Source of the DNA: Mangrovibacter phragmitis
GTDB taxonomy: Bacteria; Pseudomonadota; Gammaproteobacteria; Enterobacterales; Enterobacteriaceae
Direction of reading: 5' to 3'
Length of the DNA: 64,000 nt
Assembly (NCBI RefSeq): GCF_001655675.1
Contig: NZ_LYRP01000043.1
Span: 1-64,000, forward strand
The position numbers and the translations under genes are program-made. Below, piece by piece: positions 2,753 through 7,096 of this stretch. The notes beneath the pieces are model-generated. The model did not search any database and had not been told where the DNA came from. It saw only the letters and a list, made by a program, of their open reading frames with translations. The stretch's first letter is position 1. Each line of letters starts with the position of its first letter.

Positions 2753-3592
2753 CTAAATCACTTCTTCCCTAACGATTTCGAAGTACTGGTTTACTACATC
2801 AGCAATTCCAGTTTCCGTATTGTTACCTATTACTAAATCAGCACACGCTTTCACTTCATCAACAGCGTTACCCATAGCAACACCCAGGCCAGCAGTCTCC
2901 AACATACTTAGATCGTTGAAATTATCACCAAAGGCCATAACCTGGCTCATAGATAAGCCTTGCGATTCTACCCATTGTGCCAAGCGTTTACCTTTACTGT
3001 TTCCGGCTTGTGCTATGTCCACTTGATCGTGCCAAGACCATTCACAAGCAAGGCCAAGCTCACGCTCTACTATCTGACCAAAGCGATGTAGTTTTTCAGT
3101 ATCAGAATCAGTAAGGGCGAATTTCCATATAGCATCAACATCTTGCGATGCTTTACTAAGAGAGGGTACTTGTTTGAATACTGGACGTTGCGACTCTGGA
3201 AGAGATTTAGCCCAATTCTCTGTACGGATAATATGCCCCGTTGAATTTTGATAGAACATTGCATCATCGGCATACATCAGACTATGAACATTGTAACTAT
3301 CAAGTAGGTTTACTAATTGAGTAGCTTGTTCTGGTTGTAATGGGTCTGAGGCAATAACTCTTTTTTCGGCGTAATCGTACAATAAAGCACCGTTACAACA
3401 TATAGCTGGTGTATTCAGTGCTAATGCCTGATAAAAAGGATGGATGGCTACAAAGTGCCGTCCGGTAACTATGACAACCTTTGCCCCTGATTTACGGGCA
3501 TTCTGTAGGGCAGTTAATGAGGCTGGTAAAATAGTTTTTTCTGGCGTCAATAAAGTGCCGTCCAGATCAAGGGCGATTACCTGATAGTCCAT
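2753..3592 (-). CDS. ybhA: Full-length YbhA-type HAD phosphatase carried by the island (xenolog)
   Basis: A 279-residue Cof-type HAD-superfamily phosphatase. Motif I DLDGTLL (about residues 8-14) carries the nucleophilic Asp, and motif IV GDNFNDLSM near the C-terminus binds Mg. In E. coli YbhA is a pyridoxal-phosphate/sugar-phosphate phosphatase of 272 residues; the CCNGALL and WSWHDQVDI segments match that lineage. I place the start at ATG 3592-3590, preceded by AGGTGA at 8 bases; the frame is open further upstream but only through non-homologous sequence. It differs from the resident N-terminal fragment at about one residue in four and is more AT-rich, so it is a copy from another species brought in by the island. 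It probably restores the activity lost when the resident gene was split. Confidence 0.85.
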   Translation of the reverse strand: MDYQVIALDLDGTLLTPEKTILPASLTALQNARKSGAKVVIVTGRHFVAIHPFYQALALNTPAICCNGALLYDYAEKRVIASDPLQPEQATQLVNLLDSYNVHSLMYADDAMFYQNSTGHIIRTENWAKSLPESQRPVFKQVPSLSKASQDVDAIWKFALTDSDTEKLHRFGQIVERELGLACEWSWHDQVDIAQAGNSKGKRLAQWVESQGLSMSQVMAFGDNFNDLSMLETAGLGVAMGNAVDEVKACADLVIGNNTETGIADVVNQYFEIVREEVI

Positions 3593-3965
3593 GTAGTGAT
3601 TCACCTGATTTTGGTATGTAGTTTTTCCGATAGTACACCGCTTTGCGGCTACGACGAAACAAGGTGAAGAGTCTTGTTGAGCACTGGAACAGCGTTGGAT
3701 ACTGGCGTATTGCCTTAGATGGGTGGAAGTGTTGTAATAAGCGATACACACTCAAATAAGTGCCATTACAGCAGATGGCAGGTGTATCCAGGCGCAGAGC
3801 CTGATAAAAAGGGTGTATAGCGACGTGATGGCGCCCCGTCACAATCAAAACCTGGTAACCTGCCTGCTTCGCTTTTTCCAGCGCAGCAAGGGATTCAGGC
3901 AAGATGGTTTTTTGTGGCGTCAGTAAAGTGCCATCTAAATCAAGTGCAATAACACGATAAGTCAT
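3567..3965 (-). pseudogene. ybhA: Resident ybhA, 5' fragment broken by island insertion
   Basis: Starting at ATG 3965-3963, the first 71 codons match YbhA: motif DLDGTLLTP, then VTGRHHVAIHPFYQAL and CCNGTYL. After that the sequence leaves the family abruptly at about 3750 and runs through unrelated residues to a stop at 3567-3569, inside the start region of the island copy. The gene sits where ybhA belongs, divergent from pgl. The lost 3' part should lie at the far end of the island, left of the window. The 71-residue piece contains motif I but neither the cap nor motifs II-IV, so it cannot be active. Confidence 0.85.
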
Positions 3966-5201: not shown

Positions 5202-6506
5202 TTATTTTTTGGTATTAAGAACCACTTTGCTGCCTAACCCACGGTTATTGAATTCCCACATACGGTTGAAATTCACATCGTTCAGGTTGCGAACCCATTT
5301 TTTATCCTGCTCACTGCCAGTATTGCCAGCAAACGGGCGTTGGGAGTCTTTGGCTGTACCCCATGGATGAGCAGTGTTAAACCCGGCGTTAATGACACTG
5401 TCGCGAATCACTACCTGGCCGTTGGCGCTTTGCCCTGGAACGTAACCATTTTCGGCACCTAAATCCCATGCGCGCCCAAGTTGAGCCACTCCATCACCGG
5501 CTGCGTTGAATTCGCTGTTAAGCGCCAGGAAGCCATAGTAGATGTCAGGCAGGGTTGCAGGTGCGAACACATAGCCTTCTTTCTGAGTGCGGCTGTTCAC
5601 CACATTGAAACGGGTGTTTTCAAACACCACGGCACCACGGCCAGATACCAGGTCAACATCTCCTTCGATATAGCTGTTGGTTACCAGTGTACGTGGCTGG
5701 CCGGTGGTCATCATCCGGTTATTCACATCACTGTTAGTTACAAAGAAGGTGTTCTGGCGGCCAAGAATATTCACATTGTTAATCTGAACCTGGTCGCCAT
5801 CGCTGCGCAATGCTACGGCTTCGTGGTTACCGGCATCCACACTGTCACCCAGGGTGTTCTGAATGGTCAGGTTCTGCAATTGCAGGCCGCTGTTTTGCGA
5901 CCAGACAGCAGCTGAACACATAATCCCCATCTCTGCACCACGCCGATTCAGGCAGTTCTGGTACATGTACCATGCAGATTTACCCGGCATAAATTGCCCG
6001 GCAGGGTTAAGGGTTTTACGCCAGGTTGCTTTGTCCATACGCGCATCCAGCGCCAGGCCGATTTTGACATCAGCAGGTTTGGCTCCGGTTCCGTACAGCG
6101 TCAGGCTGCCTGGAGCCGCAGGAATATACACCGCTTCCTGATAATCGCCGGGCATAATCGCGATATACAAACGGTGGCTGGCATGGCGGGCCATTGCCGC
6201 ATCAACGGCAGACTGAATGGTGTTTTGTGTCACTCCTGGCGTACCAGCCGGGCCAACGACAAAATCAGCCTGAGCAGGTAAGGTGATACCTGTGGGTTTC
6301 CAGGGCTGAGCGCTGGGTGTCATGCTGGAAAAATAGCGGGAAGGCACAAAGTTCTGCGCTTCATCCGCAGACAGCACCGGGCGTGACTGGCTTCCCGGCG
6401 CAACCTGTTCTGACGGACGGTCCTGAGGCGGTACAGATTTACATGCCGTTAAAGTCAGGCCGAAGGCAAGAGCCAGTGCCAGGCGAGAAACCGAAAGAGT
6501 GTTCAA
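5202..6506 (-). CDS. ybhC: Outer-membrane lipoprotein of the pectinesterase family, YbhC
   Basis: About 434 residues. A lipoprotein signal LALALAFGLTLTAC-K ends in a lipobox whose Cys would be lipidated. The mature part is a right-handed beta-helix related to pectin methylesterases; segments such as VDAGNHEAVALRSDGDQVQI and GRQNTFFVTNSDV are characteristic. E. coli YbhC is an outer-membrane lipoprotein with acyl-CoA thioesterase activity and no proven pectinesterase role. I choose a TTG start at 6506-6504, which has AAGGAG six bases ahead and matches the E. coli N-terminus (MNT.SVSRLALALAFG). An ATG at 6527 gives seven extra residues but has no clear ribosome site. Confidence 0.92.
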   Translation of the reverse strand: MNTLSVSRLALALAFGLTLTACKSVPPQDRPSEQVAPGSQSRPVLSADEAQNFVPSRYFSSMTPSAQPWKPTGITLPAQADFVVGPAGTPGVTQNTIQSAVDAAMARHASHRLYIAIMPGDYQEAVYIPAAPGSLTLYGTGAKPADVKIGLALDARMDKATWRKTLNPAGQFMPGKSAWYMYQNCLNRRGAEMGIMCSAAVWSQNSGLQLQNLTIQNTLGDSVDAGNHEAVALRSDGDQVQINNVNILGRQNTFFVTNSDVNNRMMTTGQPRTLVTNSYIEGDVDLVSGRGAVVFENTRFNVVNSRTQKEGYVFAPATLPDIYYGFLALNSEFNAAGDGVAQLGRAWDLGAENGYVPGQSANGQVVIRDSVINAGFNTAHPWGTAKDSQRPFAGNTGSEQDKKWVRNLNDVNFNRMWEFNNRGLGSKVVLNTKK

Positions 6507-6553
6507 GGGTTGCTCCTTGCTTAGCAAAAAAAGGGAACGTTTCAGTAAAGTTT

Positions 6554-6568
6554 GCTTTTTTATACTAA
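6554..6568 (+). other. attB: Lambda-type attB core, unoccupied
   Basis: GCTTTTTTATACTAA is identical to the 15-bp common core of the phage lambda attachment site as known from E. coli. It sits in the same place, between ybhC and ybhB. Flanking bases TTT on the left and GTTGAG on the right resemble the integrase core-type sites. No prophage separates the two genes, so the site is empty. Confidence 0.85.
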
Positions 6569-6619
6569 GTTGAGCAAAACAGGAAGCCGATTTATGTATC
6601 GGCCCCTAAAAAAGCATAT

Positions 6620-7096
6620 TCAGCGGTACATTGCGGTAAGTGTGGCATTCCCTAAGGTATGAAAATGCACATTAAAGCCAACCATCGCCCCGCTGGAATG
6701 GGTATCGACATCTATCTGTGCAACATCCAGTGCATGCACCGTGAAAATATAGCGGTGGCGTTCACCAGCTGGCGGCGCCGCGCCACCATACTGGCTGTTA
6801 CCAAAGTCAGTGCGTGTCTGTAATGCTTTACCAGGCAGCGGGGCGATACCGGAGCCTGCACCCTGTGGCAGTTCGCGGGTCTCTGCCGGGATATTGGCAA
6901 CTATCCAGTGCCACCAACCTGAGCCTGTCGGTGCATCCGGGTCATAACAGGTGACAACAAAACTCTTAGTGCCTGCCGGGGCATCATCCCAGGAGAGTTG
7001 GGGGGAGACGTTATCTCCCTGGTAGCCCATTCCGTTAAATACATGGCGGTCTGGCAGCGTCTGCCCGTCCTGAAAATCCGTGCTAAACAGTTTCAT
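6620..7096 (-). CDS. ybhB: PEBP/Raf-kinase-inhibitor-like protein YbhB
   Basis: A 158-residue cytosolic protein of the phosphatidylethanolamine-binding family. The ligand-pocket signature CYDPDAPTGSGWWHWIVANI (about residues 50-69) and the C-terminal HRYIFTVHALD segment are clear. E. coli YbhB has the same length. Its physiological role is not settled; it was linked to kinase inhibition by homology. It follows bioA on the same strand after 60 bp and could receive read-through from the bioA promoter. The empty lambda attB lies just past its 3' end. Confidence 0.93.
   Translation of the reverse strand: MKLFSTDFQDGQTLPDRHVFNGMGYQGDNVSPQLSWDDAPAGTKSFVVTCYDPDAPTGSGWWHWIVANIPAETRELPQGAGSGIAPLPGKALQTRTDFGNSQYGGAAPPAGERHRYIFTVHALDVAQIDVDTHSSGAMVGFNVHFHTLGNATLTAMYR

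Follow-up and report, generated by a model that had tools for sequence, protein, structure and literature searches.

An empty lambda-type attB in Mangrovibacter phragmitis has its core in a conserved element in front of ybhC

The attachment site of phage lambda in Escherichia coli (attB), which lies between gal and bio and has the structure B-O-B', is a textbook site; this chromosomal place is treated as neutral for insertions (PMC12263705; this and the other papers are cited from the accessible parts of their text). Functional lambda attB measures 21 bp, laid out as 7+7+7 bases of B, overlap and B' (PMC7581858), and over 300 off-site targets of lambda show good conservation of a cytosine at position -10 (PMC5605937). 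The related phage HK022 integrates between torS and torT, replacing the disrupted torS promoter with one of its own (PMC6814406). A C-to-G change in attB has been described as a specificity determinant; HK022 attB has it too, and the integrase substitution N99D favours it (PMC10863862).

We analysed 64,000 nucleotides of Mangrovibacter phragmitis (contig NZ_LYRP01000043.1, positions 1 to 64,000), called the window below. A pattern search located the 15-base lambda core GCTTTTTTATACTAA with 0 mismatches, identical to the misc_recomb core annotated in lambda J02459 (locus L002, 325-339). It is a single copy in the 4.94-Mb genome, where the reversed-pattern control gave 0 copies, and the chance expectation for an exact 15-mer is about 1e-4 per 64 kb with uniform bases. 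As in the lambda-type attB of E. coli, the core is flanked by ybhC and ybhB, both on the minus strand, with bioA and bioB beyond ybhB (gene names by comparison with E. coli). The closest named loci for YbhB are those of Mangrovibacter plantisponsor (94% identity) and M. yixingensis (92%), and ybhC probably starts at a TTG behind AAGGAG, inside the mechanical reading frame. No prophage lies between ybhC and ybhB in the window, and the core is uninterrupted. An earlier note, made from the letters of the window, had described an exact, empty lambda core between these two genes; the core, its emptiness and its position are upheld, and "exact" holds for the 15-bp core but not for the 21-bp attB, in which 19 of 21 bases are as in E. 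coli. The likeness to the E. coli site extends to the ybhC and ybhB neighbours, the core, the overlap and the conserved element described below, whereas the window differs at 6552 and 6569, and its genus has no occupant in the three genomes read. The window site is an ordinary, vertically inherited, empty lambda-type attB, a known kind of site.

Table 1 Features at the ybhC-ybhB junction of the window.
Feature	Position	Strand	Basis and remarks
ybhC, pectinesterase family (PF01095)	5202..6506	-	mechanical ORF 5202-6527
21-bp attB equivalent	6552..6572	+	B 6552-6558, overlap 6559-6565, B' 6566-6572
Lambda-type core, exact, 15 bases	6554..6568	+	pattern match, comparison with lambda
30-bp conserved element upstream of ybhC	6557..6586	-	alignment of 25; holds 12 of 15 core bases
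TATAAA, candidate -10 hexamer of putative ybhC promoter	6559..6564	-	inferred
Overlap TTTATAC, 7 bp	6559..6565	+	same in lambda and E. coli; layout after PMC7581858 (accessible text)
Possible ybhB terminator (hairpin, weak T tail)	6583..6606	-	1 found against 0.7 expected (shuffles)
ybhB, PEBP family (PF01161)	6620..7096	-	ORF, profile match, relatives

Our main reading, to which we assign a probability of roughly 0.7, is that this is an empty inherited attB whose core falls within an element belonging to ybhC, likely its promoter, that integrases of the lambda family use this element, and that enzymes with aspartate at residue 99 (D99) probably fit the window site best. We found the exact core, 62 copies of it, in 60 of 392 genomes of the family, against 9 of 392 genomes for the reversed-pattern control. 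Host sequence stands on both sides of 52 copies (19 genera) and on the left only, with foreign sequence on the right, in five (G087, G385, G071, G204 and G164; three genera); one further copy is an attR, the right junction of G164, and four lie elsewhere with unrelated flanks. Counted by genome, an exact-core site with its ybhC-side flank is present in 57 genomes from 20 genera, five of them occupied or with remnants. Wherever enough flank was read, in 36 genomes (31 empty, 5 not), ybhC is the gene directly after the core; this check covered 36 of the 57, and the other 21 were judged from 60-base flanks. Two of the chance copies (L039, L044) put through the same check had no ybhC. When two mismatches were allowed, all 60 of the relatives searched had a match, and reversed controls matched about as often.

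Use of the site was read from broken copies and from junctions. A 116-bp attB query matched 5372 of 5426 E. coli genomes. In 3457 of them a single place covers at least 80% of the query, and the unbroken site is absent in 1915 of the 5372. We sampled 40 rows at descending ranks: 26 were unbroken and 14 broken. In 13 of the broken rows the break falls inside query bases 50-68, a stretch made up of the core and four more bases, and the remaining one ends at query base 51 without a second place. In Cedecea colo, an attR bearing ccaGCTTTTTTATACTAAgttgagcg (L083) and an attL bearing cctGCATTTTTATACTAAgttggcac (L189) lie about 45.8 kb apart on one contig, and beside attL ends an integrase gene whose 356-aa product is 69% identical to lambda Int and matches PF00589 and PF09003. 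These junctions show that lambda-type integration occurs outside E. coli, in another genus. Like UViG 3300036796_000098, Cedecea colo combines insertion at the lambda core with GTTG in the host B' arm; both differ from the window by one mismatch in the host-side core (GCATTTTTATACTAA), one base off the phage core and outside the overlap. Their phages therefore accept a change at core position 3.

In the genome of a probable Escherichia sp. (G164; 92.4% identity to E. coli over ybhB-bioA), an integrase 99% identical to lambda Int is present, as are both junctions, which lie on separate contigs. Partial integrases beside the core in G204 (67% identity), G087 (75%) and G385 (95%) are remnants, since ybhB or bioA is too near for a whole prophage, and G071 has just a short C-terminal integrase match (34%) at the core. 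Among IMG/VR sequences, at least 119 loci carry the 19-base core, and in 114 of those listed a lambda-type integrase gene ends within 110 bp. The survey of relatives that the earlier note proposed thus found lambda-type integrases or their remnants at the core (Cedecea colo, the probable Escherichia sp., and g70, g86 and g163), and its suggestion that the empty site is a possible target for lambda-type integrases is supported by this use of the same core, with 0 of 3 Mangrovibacter genomes occupied. No integrase above 43% identity to lambda Int was found in the window genome, none above 38% in G001 (M. plantisponsor), and none at E 1e-30 in G002. Integrases of the lambda family recombine attP with the host element, as the junctions of Cedecea colo and the probable Escherichia sp., not of Mangrovibacter, show. 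Two of the loci have further peculiarities. In G071, a cluster that by eye resembles histidine-utilisation (hut) genes (L452, 22-7323) adjoins the core and ybhC, with the short integrase match between. In G385, which is of the genus of G164, the remnant (L181/L192) matches the first 34 residues of ybhB and the last 85 of Int, and it looks as if a deletion ran from the prophage into ybhB.

Conservation at the site extends past the core. We aligned 25 regions upstream of ybhC (23 of the 24 ybhC loci, the window and E. coli; L118 was omitted for its incomplete start) and averaged the frequency of the commonest base in blocks of ten columns. It reaches 0.91 in the block at 6587, 0.94 at 6577 and 0.98 at 6567, falls towards ybhC to 0.79 at 6557, 0.57 at 6547 and 0.58 at 6537, and is 0.74–0.90 at the beginning of the ybhC gene. 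Upstream of the element it is 0.47–0.61; not all columns there are intergenic, as some cover ybhB coding sequence or unrelated DNA. When 80 loci were scored for the minus-strand 30-mer of the element, all 24 that bear ybhC had 0–4 mismatches, and 55 of the 56 without ybhC had 11–14, within the 10–15 of shuffled controls; the sole exception, L083, has the element and then an insertion, being an occupied site. The element stays with ybhC where ybhB is remote: the distance to ybhB is about 4.6 kb in Kluyvera (L112, L130, L133, L140) and 0.4–1.5 kb in Kosakonia (L105, L141), and ybhB is out of range in L184, L185 and L186. A search of the genome for a second copy, such as a regulon would have, found none: the 21-base part 6565-6585 occurs once at up to 3 mismatches. 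Positions 6300-6800 gave no Rfam match, and the open-access literature, as far as accessible, yielded no paper with the element as its subject.

The presence of the empty lambda site in Mangrovibacter is explained by an element that has been retained in many relatives of E. coli and of which the core is a part. We propose that the core would be kept not for the phage but as the downstream part of a host element of about 30 bp before ybhC. Two loci of Enterobacteriaceae (L124, L126) that have kept the upstream half, cttgagcgaaacgggaagcc, with a degraded lambda core offer a natural test of the half the host needs. The Kluyvera loci have kilobases of DNA between element and ybhB.

It is conceivable that phages themselves keep the sequence, integration and excision homogenising the site without any host use. 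The match with lambda attP measures 19 bp in the window (GCTTTTTTATACTAAGTTG) and 15 bp in E. coli attB, so that attP shares more with attB outside E. coli than with that of E. coli, and the many matching E. coli genomes without an unbroken site also speak for such traffic. However, conservation runs on into GAGCGAAACGGGAAG, which is absent from the lambda attP region read, and L124 and L126 retain the upstream half despite their degraded core. Precise excision, moreover, restores the host arms. We consider homogenisation by phages unlikely. The element might instead be a terminator or other 3' element of ybhB, with the core merely its tail. A 9-pair hairpin overlaps the edge of the element, and by eye several aligned loci have the same stem, but the scan that scored it in the window did not score it in E. 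coli. Kluyvera and Kosakonia keep the element with ybhC at a distance from ybhB, the 55 element-free loci lacking ybhC do have ybhB, and ybhB falls within the flank read at just 11 of the 31 empty sites, the other 20 having ybhC. An origin in ybhB is therefore quite improbable. That the core is a chance 15-base match without phage meaning is refuted: chance copies exist, as the four exact cores with unrelated flanks demonstrate, but the flanks and the ybhC neighbour are shared and relatives contain the junctions of real insertions.

We return to an element that goes with ybhC and is probably its promoter region. The gap between element and residue 1 (numbered by the window reading frame) is 25–48 nt in 21 of 24 loci and 93–121 nt in three, so that the element has both the fairly fixed distance and the tie to ybhC of a promoter. 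A consensus scan found 0 full sigma-70 promoters here in the window and 0 in E. coli, just the -10-like TATAAA, so we call the promoter putative; the accessible open-access literature on ybhC contained no mapped transcription start. On integration, the -10 part would stay with ybhC and the upstream half (6566-6586) would be moved a whole prophage away, and lysogeny should therefore change ybhC expression, as HK022 affects torS. Expression data reported in the accessible text of PMC12263705 bear on this. With an lsr cassette inserted beside the lambda attB of E. coli strain 83972, ybhC changed by a log2 value of -3.44 in lag phase, -3.01 in exponential phase and -1.57 in a later phase; the authors regard the site as neutral and the effect as lsr-dependent. 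A cis effect on the putative promoter would simply explain the drop, and since the insert consists of regulatory genes, a drop in trans may be equally compatible with the design as described. An outward promoter scan of attL gave one site in L182, with a weak -10 and on the strand reading towards ybhC, a count not above chance (0.6 expected by shuffles), and no phage-borne replacement promoter in L189.

Two arm bases set the window apart from E. coli, 6552 (C>T) and 6569 (C>G). By our own numbering, 6552 is the position of the -10 cytosine of PMC5605937, as given in its accessible text, and the window has T there. TTT precedes the core in all three Mangrovibacter genomes, and CCT does so in 53 of the 62 family copies. 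The right arm begins with G in 52 of the 53 host arms read and with C in one. Of 5426 E. coli genomes, 5059 were matched by a 40-base query with C at the equivalent of 6569, and 5052 of these matches reached at least 99%; the same query with G matched one, and the remainder matched neither. That one, E. coli KR2009 (L432), is the only G-type B' arm found with this query among the 5426, and its site is empty. We placed the base of PMC10863862 at B' position 4 from the accessible text (C22 next to A21, with G8 opposite) and from HK022 attB in DH1; by this placement, 6569 is the published position that discriminates lambda from HK022. The 15-bp core and 7-bp overlap of the window are the bases of lambda attP, and the window B' arm is that of lambda's own C' arm, which also has G; it differs from E. 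coli B'. A comparison of the flanks with known integrase sites, which the earlier note had called for, shows two arm changes, 6569 at the discriminating base and 6552 off the favoured C (positions placed from the accessible text of both papers).

Residue 99 of the integrase may vary along with this base. Among the loci listed that have a lambda Int-like enzyme (at least 85% identity) beside the core, asparagine (N99) was found in 182 of 182 where the residue could be read, a redundant count because two IMG/VR locus sets overlap; the residue was unreadable in seven core loci at 95% identity or more and in five at 60–85%. Among the matches listed, four distinct integrases at the core that are less similar to lambda Int (Cedecea colo and UViGs 3300036796_000098, 3300046660_000196 and 2847562356_000005) have D99 together with the lambda-like R287, E319 and H329. 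For three of them the right arm of the host can be seen, and it is G-type each time. HK022 attB resembles the window site in lying beside a host promoter, in the same C>G base in B' (by our own alignment) and in a D99 integrase, but differs in overlap (AGGTGAA) and locus; HK022 Int and a 95% relative in G325, neither with a lambda core beside it, have D99 with K287, R319 and R329 in place of the R287, E319 and H329 of the integrases at the lambda core. The counterexample is G164, where an N99 enzyme (99% lambda) is paired with a G-type attR, the junctions being on different contigs.

Given the G at 6569, unlike E. coli, the best-fitting integrases are probably D99 enzymes, and the natural user of the window site is probably a D99 relative of lambda Int, as judged from few cases. 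Lambda's own N99 enzyme should be able to use the site, perhaps less efficiently; the case of G164 and the G in the lambda C' arm lead us to expect that lambda Int would work there. The pairing of one base (6569) with one residue (99) provides a natural test of integrase specificity.

Our analysis adds the host element, the two changes in the arms and the finding that a second genus has the site in use. The comparison offers a reason for the location of lambda attB, namely a conserved host element, and leads us to predict a cis effect on ybhC for insertions at attB. We offer more tentatively, at slightly less than even odds, the wider proposal that attB is the core of the ybhC promoter in the ybhC-bearing Enterobacteriaceae and is targeted because it is conserved, that every integration rewires ybhC, and that the single base change in the E. 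coli B' arm and the shift of lambda Int from D99 to N99 were coupled.

The earlier note also placed the empty core close to an occupied site in ybhA. Occupation is confirmed: the native 5' fragment of ybhA (3741-3965) lies in the window, with 2.8 kb between this site and the core, and another contig carries the displaced 3' part (C9:53657-54271). The closeness carries less meaning than the note implied, as no shared mechanism is visible and the ybhA occupant is of a different kind. ORFs of 614 and 630 aa beside the displaced ybhA parts match Resolvase, Recombinase and zinc-ribbon models and are, by these domains, large serine recombinases; a shared origin of the two sites was rejected on this difference in recombinase class. 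A full but divergent ybhA is present at 2780-3592, 68% identical to the intact gene of M. yixingensis, and in M. plantisponsor the same ybhA layout spans about 33 kb on one contig. One end of the ybhA element (2753-3965 with G000:C9:53657-56102; in M. plantisponsor, G001:C14:51654-86021) brings the complete divergent ybhA, and the opposite end the large serine recombinase. Its recombinase is 614 aa long in the window strain and 630 aa in M. plantisponsor, and the ybhA of M. yixingensis is intact.
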